This document shows, piece by piece, positions 45,507 to 61,464 of a stretch of DNA of 64,000 nucleotides. Source of the DNA: Pontibacter actiniarum (GTDB lineage: Bacteria > Bacteroidota > Bacteroidia > Cytophagales > Hymenobacteraceae); NCBI RefSeq assembly GCF_003585765.1, contig NZ_CP021235.1:3038001-3102000 (forward strand), in the 5' to 3' direction. Position 1 is the first letter of the stretch. Every line of letters starts with the position of its first letter. The notes beneath the pieces were generated by a model, which saw nothing but the letters and a program-made list of their open reading frames with translations, had not been told where the DNA came from and searched no databases. The translations under genes and the position numbers were made by a program.

Positions 45507-47204
45507 TTACAAGGAAAGCAACTCTTTTGCACTTTGATAGGCGTTTGCGCTAGGATTAGCACCGGCAATCATGTGTGCAATCTCGTTTACGCGCTCCTCC
45601 TCGTTCAGCTTCTTCACGCGGCTGATTGTGCGCTCGGCAGTGTCCTCTTTATACACGAAGTAATGCGCGTTGCCCTGGGCAGCGATCTGCGGCAGGTGCG
45701 AGATGGCGATAATCTGGTGCTTCTGCGCCATCTGCTGCATCATTTTGCCCACCTTCACGGCCACCTCACCCGAAATACCGGTGTCGATCTCATCGAAAAC
45801 GATGGTTGGCAGCGAGGTTTTGTCGGCCAGCATGTACTTTATACTTAGCATCAGGCGCGAGAATTCGCCACCCGAGGCCGCCTTTATCAATGTTTGCGGC
45901 TGGGCGCCCTTGTTGGCGCTGAACAGGATGTTGATATCGTCTGTACCGGTGGCGGTAGGCGCTACCTCGTTGTGCTGGATAACGATGCGGGCGTTCGGCA
46001 TGCCCAAGTCGGCAACCAAGGCGTAAAGCTCCTGCTCAAAGGTCTCGAAAGAGGCTCTGCGGCGCTCAGAAAGTACGGCCGCTTTCTCCTTCACGTCTTT
46101 CTCAGCCTTGGCCATGGCCTTTTCTGTATTGGCAATAGCCGTGTCCAGGTTCAGCACGCTTCCGACCTTCTCCTCCAGCTCTCGCTGTATTTCCAGCAGT
46201 TCCGCATTAGACTGCACCTGGTGCTTGCGCTGCAACGTATAGATCAGGTTCAGTCGCTCCTGTACCTCCAACGTTCTTTCAGGGTCAGCCTCGGTGTTTC
46301 GCTCGGCATCCTCCAACTCACCGGCTATATCGTTGAGCTCAATCATGCAGCTTTCGGTGCGGGTACGCAGTTCCTCAAACTTGCTTCCGAACTGCGCCAG
46401 CTGGCCAATCAGGTGCACCGTGTCTTTTAGCGCCGAGGTGATGTTGAACTCCGACTCCGTCAGGCTTTGCACCGACTGGGTCAGCTTGAGCTTGATATCC
46501 TCGGCGTTCTCCAGTTGCTTCAGCTCCTCCTCCAGCTCCTCCTGCTCCGTCTCCTGCAGGTTGGCCTCGGCTAGTTCGTTCAGCAGGAAAGCATGGTAGT
46601 CGTGCTCCTTCTGGGCCTGCGCCAGCTGGTCGGTCAGCTTTTTATAGTCGCTTTCAAGCTTCTTGTACTGGCGGTAGCTCTCGTTGTACTTGCGCAGGTA
46701 CGACAGGTTTCCGGCATAGATATCGAACGTGGTGTTACCCATGGCCGCCGTGTTGCCGGCATAGATGTCCAGGATGTTGAGCTGATAGCTCGTATCGCCC
46801 AGCTGCAGCGTATCGTGCTGCGAGTGGATATCCATCAGGTTCTCACCGATCTTGCGGATCACGTCCAGCGTTACGGGCGTGTCGTTCACGAAGGCACGGC
46901 TCTTGCCGCTCGGGCTGATCTCGCGGCGCAGGATACACTGGTTATCGAAGTCCAGGTCCTCGGCGGCAAAGATTTCCTGCAGGTTATAGCTGGATATGTC
47001 AAACACACCCTCAATCACACACTTCTCATCCTGCCTGAACAGCAGCTTTGTATCGGCACGGTTACCCAGCAAGAGGCCAATGGCCCCCAGCATGATGGAC
47101 TTACCGGCACCGGTCTCACCCGTGATGATGTTGAGCACCGGCGAAGGGTTCATCTCCAGTTTCTCGATCAGGGCGTAATTTTTTATTTTAAGATCTGTCA
47201 GCAT
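45507..47204 (-). CDS. recN: DNA repair protein RecN
   Basis: SMC-like ATPase that acts on double-strand breaks. The 565-residue protein has Walker A ITGETGAGKSIM near the N-terminus, a long coiled coil (about 160-380), the signature ASGGEFSRLMLSIKYML and Walker B TIVFDEIDTGISG, followed by ISHLPQIAAQ. ATG at 47204. It lies about 135 bp after the small unknown gene and 80 bp before fabI. Confidence 0.97.
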   Translation of the reverse strand: MLTDLKIKNYALIEKLEMNPSPVLNIITGETGAGKSIMLGAIGLLLGNRADTKLLFRQDEKCVIEGVFDISSYNLQEIFAAEDLDFDNQCILRREISPSGKSRAFVNDTPVTLDVIRKIGENLMDIHSQHDTLQLGDTSYQLNILDIYAGNTAAMGNTTFDIYAGNLSYLRKYNESYRQYKKLESDYKKLTDQLAQAQKEHDYHAFLLNELAEANLQETEQEELEEELKQLENAEDIKLKLTQSVQSLTESEFNITSALKDTVHLIGQLAQFGSKFEELRTRTESCMIELNDIAGELEDAERNTEADPERTLEVQERLNLIYTLQRKHQVQSNAELLEIQRELEEKVGSVLNLDTAIANTEKAMAKAEKDVKEKAAVLSERRRASFETFEQELYALVADLGMPNARIVIQHNEVAPTATGTDDINILFSANKGAQPQTLIKAASGGEFSRLMLSIKYMLADKTSLPTIVFDEIDTGISGEVAVKVGKMMQQMAQKHQIIAISHLPQIAAQGNAHYFVYKEDTAERTISRVKKLNEEERVNEIAHMIAGANPSANAYQSAKELLSL

Positions 47205-50097: not shown

Positions 50098-50922
50098 TTA
50101 TGAATTCTGTTGATTTGATTTTCTAAGGGATGCCAGGGAGCTCTGTACCGCCTCGTACACGCGCTCTGCTTCGCGCTTATACTTGCTGTCCGGGTACATG
50201 TCCACAAAGGCCTGGAAATAATCGACGGCTTGGTCGAAGCGCTCCTCCTGCTTATCCGGCACACTCTCCAAAGCGAAGCGGTACTGCGCATCCAGCCTCA
50301 GGAAAGAAGCCTCCTCCGCGTACGGAGACGAAGCGTGCTCCTGCAGGAAGTTGTTAAGGGCCACGGCCGCCGAGCGCCAGTAACGCAGCTGGTAGTACAG
50401 GCGCGCCTGATTAAAGTCCTTCTTATCCAGCTTCAGGTAGAGCTCCTCGATGGTCTTGTTTACCTGCGGGGCAAACTCGCTGTTCGGGTAGCGCACCAGA
50501 AACTCCTCATACGCCTCAATGGCCGTCACGGTTGGTGTCTGGTCCTCCTCGTAGCTGGGCGACTGCTGGTACAGCGACTGCGCCTGCATAAACATGGCCT
50601 CCTCGGCTAGCGGGCTGCGCGGATAGGTGGTAAAGAAGCTTCGGAAATAGGCATCGCTGAGGATGTAGTTGCCTTGCATGTAGTGCGACTTGGCACGGTA
50701 GAACTGAGCTTTCTCCGCCTCCTCGGTACCCGCCATCAGGTCGGTTACCTGGTCCAGCAGCTGAGAGGCACGGTAGTACTCCTCTTGCTCATAATACTCC
50801 AGTGCAGCCTGATACTTCTTGCTGACATCGTTGCTTTTCAGCAACTTTTGAAAGTTGCTACAGCCGGTGGCGAGCAGCAACAGGCAAAACAGTGCGATAC
50901 TATGGAAAAAGCCTCTATTCAT
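50098..50922 (-). CDS. bamD: Outer-membrane assembly lipoprotein BamD
   Basis: Part of the BAM complex that folds outer-membrane proteins. The 274-residue protein has a lipobox LLATGC (Cys about 21), then tetratricopeptide-like repeats (about 35-260): YQAALEYYEQEEYYRASQLL, AYFRSFFTTYPRSPLAEEAM and AVDYFQAFVDMYPDSKYK. ATG at 50922. It heads the rpoZ-coaBC-porD group. Confidence 0.94.
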   Translation of the reverse strand: MNRGFFHSIALFCLLLLATGCSNFQKLLKSNDVSKKYQAALEYYEQEEYYRASQLLDQVTDLMAGTEEAEKAQFYRAKSHYMQGNYILSDAYFRSFFTTYPRSPLAEEAMFMQAQSLYQQSPSYEEDQTPTVTAIEAYEEFLVRYPNSEFAPQVNKTIEELYLKLDKKDFNQARLYYQLRYWRSAAVALNNFLQEHASSPYAEEASFLRLDAQYRFALESVPDKQEERFDQAVDYFQAFVDMYPDSKYKREAERVYEAVQSSLASLRKSNQQNS

Positions 50923-51000
50923 GAACAGGCAAAATTATAGAATATCCAATTGATTTACAAAACAGATTAAGCAAAGGTGTTAGCTTTCTTTCCGCCTGCC

Positions 51001-52620
51001 CTACTTTTTCCTTCCTCCGGCCGTTTTCTTGGCCGATTTCGCCTTGCCCGCGGGTGCTTTTTTCTTTGGTTCCGGCTTTGGAGCGGCAGCGGCGGGCTTA
51101 GGCAGCACCTGCTCCTTTGTAGGCCGCAGTTCTGCCAGCCAGGCAAAGCCCTCTAGCTGCTTCTGCCCCTCCTCCAGCTCGTGGGGCGGTATAAAGCTGG
51201 CGTCCGGCTGCACCAGAAACGAGATTGTCTTCAGTTTATTTTCCCCGAACTTCAAAACCATGTCACTGCAGATGGCCTTGTTCATGCCGGTCACCGTGGT
51301 ATCTCCCTCTAAGGCAAAGTATAAGCTCTCCCCGTTGCCGTTCACATTTACCCTTTTAATATCCCCGTTCTGGAAGTAGGCGGTCATGTCGCGGCCCTTC
51401 ACCTGGTTGTAGTTCCGCAGGGTGTCTTCGGAGGCGATAAACGCGTTGCTGTACATGTACATGCGGTCGATGGTCTCGTTGCGCAGCTGGATGTGGATGG
51501 TATCGGCCACCAGCTGGCTCTGCTCGTTCCAGAGCACCGGCTTCACGTTCATGTGCATGATGGAGTCGGTTCGGTTATAGCTCAGGGAGTCGGCCTTGCC
51601 CTGCAGGTCAGACTTAAATATCTTCACGTTCGGGTAGGCAAAGATCATACTTGCCGTGCGGGCCCCTTTCGCCTCCTGCGAGTACAGTGTGTCGGCGGAA
51701 AGGTAGAGCGTGTCGTTTTCCATGATCGTCTCCATCACAGGGCGGCCGTATACTTTGGCCTCTCCCCTGTCGCGCCAGTAGCGGCCAATCTGCCCCCGTA
51801 TCGTTACGTCATCCTTGAGCGAGCGCAGCGACACGTTCTTTTCGGCGTAGCCGTAGCCCGTGTTCTGGTCATAAAACAGCTTATCGCCCCCTAAGCGGTA
51901 CTCTTTGGTCAGGATATAGGCGTTGCGCCCGAAGTTCGACACCTTGGTGATGGTGTTGTAGGTTCCCTCTTCGGCGTACAGGTCGCCCTGCTGCCCGGCA
52001 ATAAAGGTAGGCCCCTGGAAGTACACCACCTTGGTGAGCGTGTTGTACTTCATGTTCTGCGCCTTAATGTCGTAATCCGCGGTCTTCACCTTTACGTCCT
52101 GCTGAAAGTCCAGCATCTTGGTTTTGGTGTTGTAGGTACCCATGCGGCTCTCCAGGCGGTTCTCCGGGTCTACAATCACACCGCCCTCCGTATAGGTTGC
52201 CGTGCGCGTGTTCAGGTTATAATCCAGGCTAGGGGTGGTCAAGGTCATGCGCGGGTCCTTCATTACCACGTTGCCGATGATCCTGGCCGTGCGGGTGTCG
52301 CCGTTGTAGGTGGCGCGGTTGCCGGTGATGTTCACGGTGTCGGCCTGGTTGATGCGCACATTGCCGAAGGCCTCCAGCACGTTTTTCTCTTTGTACTGAT
52401 ACACGGAGTCGGCGTACAGGATGCCGTCCTTCTGCTTAAAGACAACATTGCCGATCAGCTTATCGATGCGCTGGCCGTTAAAGTTACCGCCAATCAGGCT
52501 ATCGGCCTGCTGCAGCTCTACCGGCACCTTCTCTCCCTGCTGCTGATTCTGGCGCTGCCCAAAAACGGTGGCGGCCATCAGGGTAAAGACGAGAGAAAAG
52601 AGTATTTTTGCGTTCTTCAT
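51001..52620 (-). CDS. OstA/LptA-like LPS-transport family protein
   Basis: A 539-residue periplasmic protein with a signal peptide (MKNAKILFSLVFTLMAATVFG). The rest consists of repeated short beta-jellyroll strands of the LptA/OstA type (GNVVFKQKDGILYADSVYQY, ATYNGDTRTARIIGNVVMKD), suggesting a long hydrophobic groove for LPS. The C-terminus is a Lys/Ala/Pro-rich, likely disordered tail (about 60 residues). Gene is next to bamD, in agreement with an envelope-assembly role. Whether it works as LptA or as a fused transport bridge is not known. Confidence 0.88.
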   Translation of the reverse strand: MKNAKILFSLVFTLMAATVFGQRQNQQQGEKVPVELQQADSLIGGNFNGQRIDKLIGNVVFKQKDGILYADSVYQYKEKNVLEAFGNVRINQADTVNITGNRATYNGDTRTARIIGNVVMKDPRMTLTTPSLDYNLNTRTATYTEGGVIVDPENRLESRMGTYNTKTKMLDFQQDVKVKTADYDIKAQNMKYNTLTKVVYFQGPTFIAGQQGDLYAEEGTYNTITKVSNFGRNAYILTKEYRLGGDKLFYDQNTGYGYAEKNVSLRSLKDDVTIRGQIGRYWRDRGEAKVYGRPVMETIMENDTLYLSADTLYSQEAKGARTASMIFAYPNVKIFKSDLQGKADSLSYNRTDSIMHMNVKPVLWNEQSQLVADTIHIQLRNETIDRMYMYSNAFIASEDTLRNYNQVKGRDMTAYFQNGDIKRVNVNGNGESLYFALEGDTTVTGMNKAICSDMVLKFGENKLKTISFLVQPDASFIPPHELEEGQKQLEGFAWLAELRPTKEQVLPKPAAAAPKPEPKKKAPAGKAKSAKKTAGGRKK

Positions 52621-55280: not shown

Positions 55281-56474
55281 TCAGCCCCCTATCACCAGGT
55301 GGGCCACAATAAAAGAAGCCACCGACACTATAAAGCCGAACATGAACACGATATACGCCACCCGCAGCTTCCTGTACTTGCGCTCCAGCACCACGCCCAA
55401 ATTGTAGTGGTCCCGGATCAGGCTGCCGTACAAGTAGTCCGGGTCATCCATCACCTGCTTTATCGCCCACTCATACTCGTCCACAGGCATGTTGTGGTAA
55501 CTCCCGAAGAACAATAAGTTAGCGCGTTTCTGTTTTATATCCTCCTGGCTAAAGCGGCCCTGGGTTAGTTTAGGCAGCGTGACAAGAATGGTAAACACCA
55601 CTGTTACCAGGGAAGTGAGCGTAAGAATAATAGTAGGTATGATTAACCGCGGCTCCTCCTCCAACTTTCGGAATACCACTGACACCAGCAACGACACAAT
55701 AATGGAGCTGATCGTAAGCAGTATCTGCGCCTTGCTATCGGCCATGTCGCTTAGGCGTATCTGGTTGTTAGACATAATCCGGAACATGGTCTCGATGCCA
55801 CGCTCCGGCTTCTTGTCTTTCTTCTTCTTGTCCTTCTTCTGCGTATCCTCTTCTTTTACCTCTGCCCCGGCAACAAAGGTATGCTCCTGTTGCTGCAGGC
55901 TTTCCAGGTTTTGTTTCTTGCCCTCCTGCAGCGCCTGTTTGCAAAAGTCGGTGTGGTAGCCGTGGCGCTCCAGAAACTGAATAGAGGCCCGTGTCCATAC
56001 TTCTTCCTGAATCTGGCGCTCCGTACGCAGCTCAGCCTCCTGCCTTACCTGCTCGTTTTTGAGCAGAAAATCCTTGGTGCCTAGATGAAACAGGTCTGCA
56101 TCGCAAAGGATCTGTGCCGGCAAAGATTTGGGTTCCTGAGGTACGTGGGTGGCCAGTATGCACTCTTCTACCCGTGCCCGCAGCTCCGGCAGCGCTCCTT
56201 TAGAAGCAAGGAAAGCATCCGCCAGCTCAGCACTTTTCTGCACATGCTCCTCCTCGGATGTAAACAAGTATCCAACATCATGGAGCCATGCCCCCAGCTT
56301 CACAGCCAGGTAGTCCAACTCGTTTAAAGTATAATAACCGGAAATCCGCTCTACTGCCGCTACGACATCTTCCGTATGTTTTATGGAGTGATAAGGCAGG
56401 GATATATCCTTATGCTCCTGAAAGAGGCCCCTTACGTGCGCCGCGGTTTCTAAAATCAGTTTTATTCCATCCAT
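55281..56474 (-). CDS. HD phosphohydrolase fused to Pycsar-effector-type membrane domain (PycTM/DUF5706)
   Basis: 397 residues. The N-terminal HD domain (about 1-150) has YHSIKHTEDVV (His29/33), LHDVGYL (His65-Asp66), ILATHVP (His110) and ILCDADLFHLG (Asp125/127), the metal-ligand set of HD nucleotide phosphohydrolases. A lysine-rich linker (DTQKKDKKKKDKKPER, about 210-224) follows. The C-terminal part has NQIRLSDMADSKAQILL and hydrophobic helices (about 248-267, 278-300, 370-395), the Pycsar effector transmembrane (PycTM) pattern. Known Pycsar effectors respond to cCMP/cUMP and disrupt the membrane during phage defence. This one is last in an operon with a cyclase-like GAF protein and a BamA-like protein; its ligand is unknown. 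Confidence 0.87.
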   Translation of the reverse strand: MDGIKLILETAAHVRGLFQEHKDISLPYHSIKHTEDVVAAVERISGYYTLNELDYLAVKLGAWLHDVGYLFTSEEEHVQKSAELADAFLASKGALPELRARVEECILATHVPQEPKSLPAQILCDADLFHLGTKDFLLKNEQVRQEAELRTERQIQEEVWTRASIQFLERHGYHTDFCKQALQEGKKQNLESLQQQEHTFVAGAEVKEEDTQKKDKKKKDKKPERGIETMFRIMSNNQIRLSDMADSKAQILLTISSIIVSLLVSVVFRKLEEEPRLIIPTIILTLTSLVTVVFTILVTLPKLTQGRFSQEDIKQKRANLLFFGSYHNMPVDEYEWAIKQVMDDPDYLYGSLIRDHYNLGVVLERKYRKLRVAYIVFMFGFIVSVASFIVAHLVIGG

Positions 56475-56492
56475 TACGATGTGTGTCAGTAT

Positions 56493-59090
56493 TTAAAAAC
56501 GGAAGCCAACCGAAAAGTATGGCAACGCTCCGTCCTCCGAGAAGCCTACTACCCCGTGCAGTAAGATCAGCTCAGCAGGAGACACATAAACTCCTCCGCC
56601 AAAGCCGTCGTGCCAGCCGCTGTCATGGTCGCCATAGTCGGCCCACACGCGCCCAACATCGTTAAACCCTATCAGGCCAAACGAGCCCGGAAACAGGAAG
56701 GAGTTAAAATCAAACAGCTTCAGGCGTAGCTCTATGTTGTGGTACAGCATTTGCTCGCCGGCAAAGCGAAAGTTACGGTAGCCTCTCAGGTTTTGCGTGC
56801 CTCCCAAGTATAACAACTGAAAGAAAGCTGCATCGCCAAACGTTGCGCCACCACCTACCCGGTTAGCCACAACAAAATTATTTCCTAAGCTAAAGTATAC
56901 CCCAATTTCAGACTGCAGTCGGCCATACTTGTCTTCATCGCCATTAAACTGCGTAATGCCGCGCAAATTGGTATCCCAGAAAATACCCTGCGTCGGCATT
57001 ATGCTGTTATCGCGGGTATCCAGGGTAAAGCCACCGATCAGGCCACCGTAGTATTTACTGCCAAAGAGGTCCTGCCCCGGGTTTTGCTCGCTATACACGT
57101 TTATAAAGCGCCCTTCATTATCCTCAGGGTTCATGCTGAAGAACTGACCGGTTATACCTGCATATGCTTTGAACTTTGGCGTGAGCAGGCATTGCAGCGT
57201 GGCCTGCGCCTCTATAAAGTCGTAGCGGGTGCGGTAGTAGCGAATTCTTTTATCCGTGATATCCAGAAACTCCGTGCCGTTGCCTACTCCAAAGAAGTTG
57301 CTCGTGTTATTTGGCGCCCGGGCATCCAGCTCCAGCCCCAGGTCATACTGGCCCACCAATTTAGGAAATTCTGCCTCATAGCTTCCGAAAAAAGCGTTTG
57401 TTGCCAGGGCATGCCCTATAACCAGGCGGTGTTTAGCGGCATAAGGCTCTCTGCGGAAGCCGTGCTTCGTGAACTGAAAACCGGCTCCCAGAAGAATACC
57501 ATCGTCCAGGTTATAGCCTACCGTTGCCAGCGGCATCAGCACATCATACTCGAAGCTGCGGCTGTTGTAGCTGTTCACCACGGTATCGTTTGCCAGCTTC
57601 AGCTTGGCCACACTACCTTCAGGCAAGGTGTTCTGCTCATCTTTGCGGTCATAGATAAGCAGGCGGCGTTTATTCCGGAAATTATCAGCCACCTGGAACG
57701 TATCGGCCTTCCCTCCTCCAATCAGGCGCACCTTAATATCAGATTTGGCATCGCCCTCCACCGTGAACAGGTCTTCGTCACCGCGGCCGTATAACCTTAG
57801 CTCGTCGGTAATATCTGGGTTAAAGGTACGCTGCATCAGCAGCTTATCGCGCTTGCCCTCTTTCTTGATCTTGTATACCTTCAGGTCAATGTTCCCGCCT
57901 GGCTGGTAGGTCAGGTTAAACTCTTCGTGCTTGTCTGATCCGGGAATGTCCACTTCTTCAGCCAGAAAGCGGTAGTACTCCATTGCCTGGTTCTCCAGAT
58001 CGTTTCGGCGGGCTATTAGTTTCTGGATGGTCTCCTCTCCTGACTGCTCATAGATCGGCTTCGGCATACGCTGCACAGCTTTTCTGATCAGTTCATCGGT
58101 AAGCTGCTGCTGCACATACTTTATTTCCTCGCGCCAGTCCTGCTCGCCAAGGTGCGTCAGAAAGCTGCGGTCGAAGTAGCGGGCGTTAAAGTTAAACCCT
58201 TTGATGTCCCGTATCTCACGATCAAAGCCCTGGAACTTCGGCATAATCCATTTTCTGGAACCGATCTTCGGAATCACACCTTCGTTGGTGAAAAACACCT
58301 GATCGCGGTCGCGGGGGATGGGCGCATACAGTTTGTTACTGTCCGCATCATCTAACTGCCGCCAGCGCCACTGATCTTCGTGCCGGTCCCAGTCGCCGAT
58401 CACGAAATCCAGCAGCCTTGCCCGCAGCACTGCCCGCTGGTTTACGCGTGTATCGTTATCTTCTTTCAGCTCCTCCAGCACCTTTTCGGTATTGTCTGTA
58501 TCGAGGCCCGGAGCCACAGGCTCGCGCTCCTCGAACAAGTACACCGCATTGGCAAACTCCTTCTGGTAGGCACCCAATGCAGGGTCGTCGGGCAGGTAAA
58601 CTATCTCCGGGTTGGCATGCAAAATATCGAGCGCCTCAGCCAGTGGCGGCACAACCAGAGCGCCATAAGGGTGTGCAGCAGAAATCTGGTCCTGCACGAT
58701 ATCTTTGGCTACCGTAGCCCGCAGGTACTCGGGCAAGGCCTTTTCAGGATCTTTCTGGATAGTGCGGAGCACCCATTCGTTTCCGCTGGGGTCCTCCAGG
58801 CGCAACGATTTTGTTTGCTGGCCGCCACCTTTCTTGGTAATACGGAGCCCCCCTTTCTCATTGCTCAACCGGAAGACGCGCATCTTCACCGGCGTTGCCC
58901 AAAGCTTGCGGTAGTTCTCGCCAAACCAGAAGCGGTGCGCCTGCTTTACCGAATCATACCCGGGGGCAATGGCCACGGTTATACTGTCCTGCTGTAGCGT
59001 TTGCTGCCCCTGAGCCAAAGCACACGTGCCTGTCAGCAGCAGGCCGGACAGCAGCACAAGGGTATGGTATAGCTTATTTTTGGATATCAT
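56493..59090 (-). CDS. BamA/TamA-type outer-membrane barrel with kinase-like N-terminal domain
   Basis: 865 residues from ATG 59090 (GTG 59114 is the alternative start; residue numbers here count from that GTG and are 8 higher than from the ATG). Signal peptide MISKNKLYHTLVLL...ALAQ. Residues about 70-390 resemble an atypical kinase: EWVLRTIQKDP (candidate Lys121), then LLDFVIGDWDRHEDQW (candidate catalytic Asp243/His245 region) and PIPRDRDQVFF (candidate metal Asp271). This pattern recalls PI3/4-kinase DRHxxN and FAM20/HipA-like motifs. The C-terminal half (about 540-873) is a surface-antigen-type beta barrel ending in YFSVGFRF with terminal Phe. An 18-bp gap precedes the HD-PycTM gene. The barrel is clear; the kinase reading is inference. 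Confidence 0.83.
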   Translation of the reverse strand: MISKNKLYHTLVLLSGLLLTGTCALAQGQQTLQQDSITVAIAPGYDSVKQAHRFWFGENYRKLWATPVKMRVFRLSNEKGGLRITKKGGGQQTKSLRLEDPSGNEWVLRTIQKDPEKALPEYLRATVAKDIVQDQISAAHPYGALVVPPLAEALDILHANPEIVYLPDDPALGAYQKEFANAVYLFEEREPVAPGLDTDNTEKVLEELKEDNDTRVNQRAVLRARLLDFVIGDWDRHEDQWRWRQLDDADSNKLYAPIPRDRDQVFFTNEGVIPKIGSRKWIMPKFQGFDREIRDIKGFNFNARYFDRSFLTHLGEQDWREEIKYVQQQLTDELIRKAVQRMPKPIYEQSGEETIQKLIARRNDLENQAMEYYRFLAEEVDIPGSDKHEEFNLTYQPGGNIDLKVYKIKKEGKRDKLLMQRTFNPDITDELRLYGRGDEDLFTVEGDAKSDIKVRLIGGGKADTFQVADNFRNKRRLLIYDRKDEQNTLPEGSVAKLKLANDTVVNSYNSRSFEYDVLMPLATVGYNLDDGILLGAGFQFTKHGFRREPYAAKHRLVIGHALATNAFFGSYEAEFPKLVGQYDLGLELDARAPNNTSNFFGVGNGTEFLDITDKRIRYYRTRYDFIEAQATLQCLLTPKFKAYAGITGQFFSMNPEDNEGRFINVYSEQNPGQDLFGSKYYGGLIGGFTLDTRDNSIMPTQGIFWDTNLRGITQFNGDEDKYGRLQSEIGVYFSLGNNFVVANRVGGGATFGDAAFFQLLYLGGTQNLRGYRNFRFAGEQMLYHNIELRLKLFDFNSFLFPGSFGLIGFNDVGRVWADYGDHDSGWHDGFGGGVYVSPAELILLHGVVGFSEDGALPYFSVGFRF

Positions 59091-59130
59091 AAATTTGCGT
59101 ATAGACTGCCACACCTATACTTATCTTAGG

Positions 59131-61464
59131 CTAAAGAGTTATATGCAGCCGCACAGCTTTTAGTCCGGCAATGCCTTGCAACGGTTCCAGCTCCAGGTAC
59201 TCAGCTTCCGGTTTCAGCTTACCTTCCTGCATAAGCTTTTCATACTGAACTTTGTACATTTCCAGCTCCTGCTCATTGGCATACACAACCGCGATCGTCC
59301 CCGGCTGGGTTAGCCGCTCATCGCTGTTGAGCAAGTGCACCTTGTCAATGCGTTTCTTTATCACCTCGTAGCGGATGCTGTAAGCGCCGTCCACATCAAA
59401 GATGCGCTCGTCTGGCCTAAAGCTCAGGTTGACTTTGTGCAGGTGCACCAGCAGCAGCTGCGTTGTCTGGAGCGGGTAGGGCAACTGCTCCTGCAGGTTA
59501 TGCACCACCTGGGCCATCTCCACGATGGTGTGCAGCTGCCAGGCAATAACGTCGGAGAGGCTTTCCTGCTCCTTGTACTTTAGCTCCGGTGCTACAGAGC
59601 GGCCAACGTAGAGGCTATACTCCAAGCCGTCGGTCTGGAAACGATCCATGTAGTACGGCAGCACCCCCTGCAGCTGCTGCTCTTTCAGCATCAGCACCCG
59701 TTTCAGCTTTTTGTTTAGCTCCTCGATGCTCTCCTCGTAGCGGTGGATGGTCTGGTGCAAATCGCTGTTCCCGTCCTGCAGCTTTGCCTTGAAGGCGGCC
59801 ACCGCCTCCGTGTTTATACCTTGCTCCAGCAGTTGCTCCACCGTAAGCTGCAAATGCTCCGATACATTCAGCTCATCCTCCAGGCTTGTGCTCCCGCCCA
59901 GTTGCCGTTGCCAGCGGTTTGTAGCACTGCGCAGCTCCTGCATACTTGCAGGAATAAGCTGGTGCAGCGCCTCTAGCTGTAGCAGCAGGTCGGTGCGGGT
60001 GGCATGCAGGCGCTCCACGCTTGAGTTGCGGATATCTACCGCAGCATAAAACGGCACCAGGTCATCGAACCGTATGGGCGGTGTGGGTACATACGTGCTG
60101 CCGCTCCGGGGCACCTGCCGCAGGGCTTCCCAGGCGGCCTCCCTGAACCGCCAAAGCATAGACGGATGAATGGCAGTGTACCTCCTCAGGATAAAGTTGT
60201 TGATCATCTGCTGGAACTTGTCCTGCAGGTAAAGCAGGAACTCCCGGTACATGGGCACAGCGCGCTCCACCTTGCGGCGCATCTGCAGGTTTACCAGGCC
60301 CGGCTCCGTACTCCCGATCTCGATCATGCCAATCAGCTCGCTCTTATGGTACACCGGAAAGAAAGCCATACTCCTGATGCCGTACTTATACAGGTACCGC
60401 GGCAGCTCCTCCTCCTCTCTGCCCGTGATGGCATCGTAGTAGATATCCGTGTTGAGCAGCCTGCGGCTGGAGCAGTAGGAAAACAGCGTTCTGAAGATTC
60501 TCTCCAACTCCCCGGAAGTGTGGTGCTCCCGGAGCTGGTTGAACAGGATGCTGGTGGAGGCAAAGCTATCGTGGTACACATACTGCTTGTTTACCTGCAC
60601 AAAAGGCAGAAAGCCCAGCCTCACCTTCTCTGTGCCCAGCAAGGTGGAGGTAGCCGCTACCATCTGCTTTACGAGCTGCCGCTCAGGCAGGGCATGCATG
60701 TTTACGAGAGTGCTGTTTAGCCGCAGCAGCGACTCTTCCTCTGTTTCGTCCTTCAGCTTAAATATGATAAAGCCCTCTATCACGATATCGTGCAGCGGCA
60801 GCGGCTCCTGCAGCTGGCCTACACGCTGTACATTACCCTGGGCAAACTCCAGCCACTCGTGCCGCAGCGGGGGCTTCTGCCCCACCCAGCGCACCTCCAT
60901 AAACTGATGGTTGCTGACCAGGCGGTAGTAGCGGTTACACGGCTGGCAGTTCTCCTCCAGCGTCATAAACTCCGCTGGCTCCGTGCCAAACGCCTCCCGC
61001 GGCACCTCATAGCTGCGGTGCAGCACTTCGCGGTACACCCCCTGCATTACCTTTTCGTTTTCACTGTGAGGCCCGCACGGCTGCAGCTTTACCTCTCCCT
61101 CGTGGCCGCTTAGCGCGAGCGCAGCAAAAGAGGGGGAGTAGGAGAAGAAGCGCAACGGCGACGGCACCCCCAACGCATACATCAGGTCCTTGTCCGCTTC
61201 AAAGGGGTAGACGTGGTTTAGCTTCAGGAGCTCGATCAGCTCCCGGTGCTCCTGCAATATGCCCCAGTCGTGGATAGGCTGCGTAAGGCGCTCATCCTGG
61301 TTGATCAGGTCGATGATACGCTGCAGGTACGCGCTGTAGGTGGGGTTGTGGCACGTGGCCAGTTGGCGCTCCAGAAAGCGGAGGTACGGCCCAAACGATA
61401 GCTCCCAGGTTAGGCTGGTCATTATACTTTGGTCCTCTGCTGCTGTTATTCCTAAAGTTTCCAT
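59131..61464 (-). CDS. GAF-domain protein with class III nucleotide-cyclase-like C-terminus
   Basis: 777 residues from ATG 61464. Cytosolic, no membrane helix. N-terminal helical part (1-250), GAF-like domain (about 255-425: IRSMAFFPVYHKSELIGMIE), then a C-terminal region. There LVPFYAAVDIRNSS (Asp477) and DRFQTDGLEYSLYVG (Asp612) match the two metal-Asp motifs of class III cyclases, with about 130 residues of coiled helices between them instead of about 45. RYEVIKKRIDKVHLL and QPGTIAVVY match the last motif region, but the transition-state Asn/Arg pair is not conserved. It could be a degenerate cyclase or a cyclase of altered specificity. First gene of the operon. Confidence 0.78.
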   Translation of the reverse strand: METLGITAAEDQSIMTSLTWELSFGPYLRFLERQLATCHNPTYSAYLQRIIDLINQDERLTQPIHDWGILQEHRELIELLKLNHVYPFEADKDLMYALGVPSPLRFFSYSPSFAALALSGHEGEVKLQPCGPHSENEKVMQGVYREVLHRSYEVPREAFGTEPAEFMTLEENCQPCNRYYRLVSNHQFMEVRWVGQKPPLRHEWLEFAQGNVQRVGQLQEPLPLHDIVIEGFIIFKLKDETEEESLLRLNSTLVNMHALPERQLVKQMVAATSTLLGTEKVRLGFLPFVQVNKQYVYHDSFASTSILFNQLREHHTSGELERIFRTLFSYCSSRRLLNTDIYYDAITGREEEELPRYLYKYGIRSMAFFPVYHKSELIGMIEIGSTEPGLVNLQMRRKVERAVPMYREFLLYLQDKFQQMINNFILRRYTAIHPSMLWRFREAAWEALRQVPRSGSTYVPTPPIRFDDLVPFYAAVDIRNSSVERLHATRTDLLLQLEALHQLIPASMQELRSATNRWQRQLGGSTSLEDELNVSEHLQLTVEQLLEQGINTEAVAAFKAKLQDGNSDLHQTIHRYEESIEELNKKLKRVLMLKEQQLQGVLPYYMDRFQTDGLEYSLYVGRSVAPELKYKEQESLSDVIAWQLHTIVEMAQVVHNLQEQLPYPLQTTQLLLVHLHKVNLSFRPDERIFDVDGAYSIRYEVIKKRIDKVHLLNSDERLTQPGTIAVVYANEQELEMYKVQYEKLMQEGKLKPEAEYLELEPLQGIAGLKAVRLHITL

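Follow-up and report, generated by a model that had tools for sequence, protein, structure and literature searches.

Proteins with a PycTM domain are known as suicide effectors in phage defence, and the known Pycsar pair offers no place for an outer-membrane enzyme. A three-gene operon of Pontibacter actiniarum (NCBI RefSeq assembly GCF_003585765.1, contig NZ_CP021235.1, positions 3,038,001 to 3,102,000 of the forward strand; this whole stretch of 64,000 nucleotides is called here the window) places a PycTM protein beside a GAF/cyclase-fold protein and an outer-membrane barrel protein. With slightly better than even confidence, we read this operon as an envelope-linked cyclic-nucleotide relay that is related to the Pycsar pair but distinct from it.

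The operon shares with Pycsar the PycTM domain in its third gene and a cyclase-fold partner in the same operon, and relatives have a PF00211 cyclase beside PycTM or fused to it. It differs from Pycsar in that its PycTM is fused to an HD phosphohydrolase domain, that the gene of a kinase-fold Omp85 barrel lies between the other two, that a polyphosphate kinase gene (ppk1) is frequent at the loci of relatives, and that the PycC models miss the GAF protein. Full-length HD-PycTM is present in all 60 sampled genomes of the family and in 16 of 80 genomes of the phylum, the window operon itself being patchy (2 of 30 genus genomes). Although the operon resembles Pycsar in the proposed flow of the signal, it is not classed as Pycsar, because the GAF protein has no PycC match and a defence island seems less likely in view of how HD-PycTM is distributed. 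A phage-defence island was also rejected as first choice on that distribution and because no island appeared among 10 flanking proteins.

Other described families resemble single parts of the operon. DUF2652 proteins were described in 2016 as class III cyclase-like (PMC4886424), and the neighbour table of that paper lists one DUF2652-HD phosphohydrolase pair (HSW_3800/HSW_3799), in which, as in the window, a cyclase-like gene adjoins an HD phosphohydrolase gene in Bacteroidota. Unlike them, the GAF protein has no DUF2652 match, and the main text of that paper does not contain the terms GAF, HD domain or polyphosphate. The second gene ends in a barrel like those of the Omp85 family (BamA, TamA; PF01103, PF19143), but the Pfam scan gave no POTRA family for it, and a kinase fold, in relatives often together with a metallophosphoesterase, appears to take the place of such domains. 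This kinase fold differs from the PI4KII, CotH, CtkA and HipA-type kinases in preceding an outer-membrane barrel and in having Gln for the metal Asn. The hydrolases 2pq7 and YedJ (3gw7) share the HD profile, but neither is fused to PycTM. No description of the whole trio was found among the matches listed in searches of the CC0, CC BY and CC BY-SA literature, which does not establish its absence from print. The features of the locus, in window coordinates, are as follows.

61464-59131, minus strand: GAF and class III cyclase-fold protein, 777 amino acids (aa) from ATG (open reading frame (ORF), family alignment, structure model)
60196-60750, minus strand: its GAF domain, residues 239-423
59131-60075, minus strand: its class III cyclase-fold domain, residues 464-777, carrying a helical insert some 100 residues long (structure model)
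60034-60036, minus strand: codon of D477, first putative metal Asp, at the end of strand 465-478 (68/68 rows; model position)
59629-59631, minus strand: codon of D612, second putative metal Asp, in the turn between strands 604-610 and 613-620 (68/68 rows; model)
59114 or 59090 to 56493, minus strand: outer-membrane barrel protein with signal-peptide-like N-terminus, kinase-fold domain and Omp85 barrel
57570-59027, minus strand: residues 30-515 of the barrel protein as a separate model, showing a kinase fold (about 77-385 in full-length numbering) and then a strand-rich part
56474-55281, minus strand: fusion protein of 397 aa with an HD phosphohydrolase domain and a PycTM domain (ORF, Pfam, PADLOC)
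61630-61588, minus strand: terminator-like hairpin between the rhomboid gene and the GAF gene (-33 kcal/mol, z -6.2)
55253-55218, both strands: terminator-like hairpin of 14-16 bp between the HD-PycTM gene and the convergent malate dehydrogenase gene (mdh)

The three ORFs are adjacent on the minus strand. The barrel protein has 873 aa from GTG 59114 or 865 aa from ATG 59090, and the latter codon opens the signal-peptide-like stretch; counted from the ATG starts, the coordinates reproduce the gaps of 40 and 18 bp given by a sequence-only reading of this DNA. The two flanking terminators of that reading correspond to the hairpins listed, of which the one at 61630-61588 was missing from the list of a simple hairpin scan and was picked up by a folding-energy test, while the one at 55253-55218 has z values of -6.0 and -4.4 on its two strands. 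The Bacteroidota-type promoter pattern was absent upstream of the operon; its 2 matches in the window (0.58 expected) both lie elsewhere.

A partnership of PycTM with a cyclase is indicated most strongly by relatives, in which distant or unrelated-looking proteins of one fold fill the same slot and in one case the two domains are fused. A cyclase profile constructed from relatives located PF00211 domains near PycTM or barrel genes. Six genomes belonging to another class encode a cyclase-TPR protein (647-666 aa) 29-73 bp downstream of a metallophosphoesterase-type barrel (L180/L181, L182, L184, L185, L196, L243). It is followed by an HD-less PycTM gene 27-58 bp further on in L182, L184 and L185 and about 7 kb further on in L181 and L243, and no HD-less PycTM was found on the stretch read of L196. 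A 374 aa cyclase lies between barrel and HD-PycTM in L151. In the genus of the window, a cyclase-TPR protein of 662-673 aa is divergent from HD-PycTM in all six genomes showing that type (L175-L179, L246). A DUF2652 protein is convergent with HD-PycTM, at a distance of 64-259 bp, in 17 of the 30 top-ranking loci of the family; two such proteins aligned to the cyclase profile gave matches spanning both Asp motifs (20.9 bits each). Finally, the 382 aa ORF of L244 joins a cyclase domain (PF00211, 40.6 bits) to PycTM (113.8 bits) and keeps FADIVGY, YYGDG and GDAVNVASR intact. The link by which a cyclase makes a signal and PycTM responds gains from this replacement and fusion, which, like the ppk1 association described below, go beyond what the sequence-only reading had noticed.

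The cyclase fold proposed for the GAF protein is borne out by its predicted structure and a fold search, in which it resembles 8jsz no more than other class III cyclases. The 50 fold matches listed contain no diguanylate cyclase, an absence that carries no evidential weight. D477 and D612, invariant in the family alignment, lie at the expected positions as judged from the topology of the model. Four further residues (R698, K703, K704 and R705) are invariant in 68/68 rows and might stand in for the transition-state residues. The protein itself matches no Pfam family at its cut-off; GAF was matched at E<=1 by 16 of 18 members of the family alignment, the window protein not being one of them, and in a sequence-profile search of the PDB the matches at E below 0.1 were confined to the GAF region. 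Phytochromes fill many Foldseek rows for the GAF part; as regards possible bilin binding, 17 of the 68 aligned rows have a Cys among the first 30 residues. The order of strands and helices alone hints at a PAS-like part near residues 90-193. The protein is probably cytoplasmic. Some variants of this gene were also seen: a 1383 aa ORF (L158, 8902-13050) has a long N-terminal extension with no Pfam match, the own genome holds a second, distant copy with no partners nearby (L085, 6095-8554), and a PycTM-only ORF (204 aa, HD-less) lies directly 3' of the GAF/cyclase-fold gene in L005 (9986-12908).

The third gene, read before as an HD phosphohydrolase with PycTM, indeed matches PF18967 PycTM (112.4 bits, cut-off 27.2), PF01966 HD (29.1 bits) and the PADLOC PycTM model (E 7e-18). 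Its HD metal motif H...HD...D is complete (H33, H65, D66 and D127 in 30/30 aligned rows). By profile, the HD part is nearest to 2pq7 (E 1.7e-7) and YedJ (E 7.3e-6), and cyclic nucleotide phosphodiesterases match it at non-significant values (E 0.12 or more). The second HD-PycTM of the own genome (L086) sits with ppk1 and a metallophosphoesterase-type barrel; two loci of the genus beside a second HD-PycTM (L135, L136) contain neither cyclase nor barrel.

The second gene has an Omp85 barrel at its C-terminus (PF01103, 48.9 bits), and structure searches with the modelled N-terminal domain found a protein/lipid kinase-like fold, which supports the kinase fold suggested earlier. K121, D243 and D269 of this domain are each invariant in 59/59 rows. 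We take them to be the kinase Lys, the catalytic Asp and the metal Asp, an assignment made from a DRH loop weakly aligned to CtkA (E 0.29) and from the known kinase motifs. No POTRA family was found in the Pfam scan of the barrel protein at E 1, the list of structural matches being filled by kinase entries. The best match of the barrel protein is 80% to a P. oryzae protein, and of 7,996 candidates scored against the whole protein 6,428 match, a count made regardless of whether they carry the kinase-fold part. The own genome encodes three more kinase-fold proteins, of 530-587 aa and barrel-less (L188, 7594-13988; L189; L190); one of their genes has two PAP2 genes and a gene with only an HD domain in its vicinity. 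In L191 (8949-13094), kinase fold, metallophosphoesterase and barrel are three separate consecutive ORFs.

A survey of gene neighbourhoods, as the sequence-only reading had proposed, showed that these families often recur together in other members of Bacteroidota, a hint of an envelope signalling system that has received little study. It was anchored on the best 80 of at least 540 confirmed relatives of the GAF protein, 63 of them with full 10 kb flanks. Profiles for HD, PycTM, kinase fold and barrel came from family alignments, and those for ppk1, SdiA-like, metallophosphoesterase, PAP2 and DUF2652 were each grown from one locus gene; hmmsearch matches weaker than E 1e-5 were discarded, GAF-protein matches below 200 bits, cyclase matches below 50 bits and DUF2652 matches below 100 bits were left uncounted, and gene identities were verified by Pfam for examples. 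The 63 full-flank loci include HD+PycTM in 49, a kinase-fold barrel in 50, both in 49, ppk1 in 42 and an SdiA-regulated/phytase-like gene in 47; for all 80 loci the counts are 56, 56, 53, 43 and 55, with none of these genes in 20. The kinase-fold barrel is of the metallophosphoesterase-bearing form in 39 of these 50 full-flank loci and of the short form seen in the window in 16, both forms being present in 5. The order and strand of the window (GAF, barrel, HD-PycTM) were found in 4 of 121 loci scanned, namely Spirosoma sordidisoli (L003), Siphonobacter (L004), the window and a locus of the same genus (L120). One 971 aa ORF (L075, 3405-6317) consists of a polyphosphate kinase and an SdiA-regulated-like domain, and in a metagenome genome (L025, 2142-9863) the cluster is split into partial ORFs by frameshifts or sequencing errors.

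The association was also seen from the side of HD-PycTM. A phylum sample of 80 genomes, the own included, contains the GAF protein (>500 bits) in 12, full-length HD-PycTM in the 16 already mentioned (18 loci), ppk1 in 74 and the kinase-fold domain in 28 (38 matches). Within 10 kb of the 18 HD-PycTM loci there is a kinase-fold gene in 13, ppk1 in 5, the GAF protein in 7 and a PF00211-type cyclase in 1; copy-number arithmetic gives a chance expectation for a kinase-fold neighbour of about 1% on average and about 2% in two five-copy genomes. In 20 chosen HD-PycTM loci of the family, ppk1 lies within 10 kb of 12. The own genome has two ppk1 genes, neither beside the window operon and one by the second HD-PycTM. 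The ppk1 and SdiA-regulated-like neighbours may point to phosphate or polyphosphate physiology rather than phage defence.

The relay reading is based on predicted folds, conserved residues, a recurrent neighbourhood, cyclase replacement and one cyclase-PycTM fusion; from these we infer catalysis, its product, the receptor role, the protein locations and the place of the barrel in the chain. In the proposed scheme, the GAF domain would sense a small ligand, and the GAF/cyclase-fold protein would make a cyclic (mono)nucleotide using two Asp-bound metals. The HD-PycTM protein of the inner membrane would respond to this nucleotide through its PycTM part, and its HD domain might remove the signal or a related phosphorylated nucleotide, giving a graded, non-lethal response. 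The outer-membrane protein would expose its kinase fold, joined in most relatives by a metallophosphoesterase, to the periplasm and might extend the phospho-chemistry of the response as far as the outer membrane. Polyphosphate kinase is encoded at this locus in many relatives, and phosphate or polyphosphate physiology is the likely theme of such a relay.

Several results weigh against this scheme. The transition-state Asn/Arg of the GAF protein (G-x-x-V-N-x-A-x-R) are out of the canonical register. No match was obtained with PF00211 among 18 family members at E 1, with the PADLOC PycC models at E 0.1, or by hhalign of the GAF profile, with and without the helical insert, against 20 cyclase regions of related genomes (L172 among these being an ORF in the wrong frame). 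In the barrel protein, the metal Asn after DRH is Gln in 57/59 rows and Asn in 2/59, and a periplasmic kinase would be without ATP. None of HD+PycTM, barrel, ppk1 and SdiA-like genes was found in 12 of the 63 full-flank GAF loci, 10 of the 18 HD-PycTM loci of the phylum sample, including the second copy of the own genome, have no cyclase-type gene within 10 kb, and 15 of the 20 PF00211 loci read from relatives show no HD-PycTM in 1.5 kb flanks. The main result against an obligate trio comes from the genus, of which 41 genomes were searched and the mdh loci of 30 were read. The barrel is alone at the mdh-rhomboid site in 8/30 genomes, as confirmed on wider stretches, and can therefore do without the other two genes at this site. 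The full operon is there in 2/30 (G000, the own genome, and G049), in 17/30 the rhomboid gene lies within 1.5 kb of mdh with none of the three genes between, and 3/30 have another arrangement. The central notion of the envelope signalling idea put forward from the letters survives, with support from the folds, motifs and co-occurrence; its chain of steps, including the part of the barrel in it, is still a proposal.

The surroundings of the operon are made up of mdh, rhomboid, OstA/LptC-like and BamD-like genes. The OstA/LptC-like and BamD (YfiO)-like genes, of envelope biogenesis, lie nearby at 50098-52620 (minus strand). An ATPase at 45507-47204 (minus strand), about 8 kb from the operon, matches mad3 (E 8e-27) and, more weakly, AriA, PtuA and others.

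The neighbouring genes can also be explained otherwise. It is possible, though in our judgement rather unlikely, that this is a locus of phosphate/polyphosphate metabolism, in which the cyclase-fold and PycTM domains have lost their second-messenger roles, HD is a PycTM-anchored nucleotide or polyphosphate hydrolase, and the kinase and phosphoesterase domains of the barrel protein recycle surface phosphate. The ppk1 counts around GAF and HD-PycTM loci, the SdiA-regulated/phytase-like and PAP2 genes nearby, the prevalence of the metallophosphoesterase-bearing barrel and the single ppk1/SdiA-like ORF of L075 all fit this explanation, but canonical PF00211 cyclases with intact motifs, in the same slot or fused to PycTM, are hard to explain without a cyclic nucleotide, and no ppk1 adjoins the window operon. 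That the genes are neighbours by history, with a barrel that acts independently as an outer-membrane enzyme and with the genes of the GAF protein and HD-PycTM beside it for no functional reason, appears very unlikely: the association recurs across families, even in another class of the phylum, while gene order and orientation vary, and the order and strand are identical in Spirosoma and Siphonobacter, despite the barrel-alone sites of the genus and the three barrel-less kinase-fold genes elsewhere in the genome.

A role in phage defence, as a Pycsar variant killing or arresting the infected cell, would agree with the PADLOC match of the PycTM part, with the cyclase and PycTM genes adjacent or fused in other genomes and with the patchiness of the operon at its genus site. 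We nevertheless hold it to be quite improbable, given a full-length HD-PycTM in every sampled family genome, an outer-membrane enzyme foreign to the known pair, the mdh, rhomboid, OstA/LptC-like and BamD-like genes around it, and the 10 flanking proteins tested, of which one (the ATPase about 8 kb off) resembles defence ATPases and a tilS-like one matches QueC.

The envelope-linked relay may be part of something broader, which we put forward as a speculation unlikely to hold in full. In an ancestral trans-envelope module of Bacteroidota, core in some families, a cyclase belonging to one of four or more interchangeable types would signal to a PycTM receptor of the inner membrane, often fused to HD, and through it to the outer-membrane barrel. 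The periplasmic kinase fold of the barrel would work ATP-free, its donor being the polyphosphate of the linked PPK1 or a product derived from it, and phage-defence Pycsar would have branched off from the module or employ the same receptor in parallel.

The PycTM described here shares a protein with a hydrolase, occurs in all genomes sampled from its family and is tied by neighbourhood to a kinase-fold outer-membrane protein. If the relay reading of the operon is right, PycTM proteins would have a housekeeping envelope role in a major bacterial phylum, many annotations as "Pycsar system effector family" in Bacteroidota would mislead, and the role of the large kinase-fold Omp85 family would become testable.

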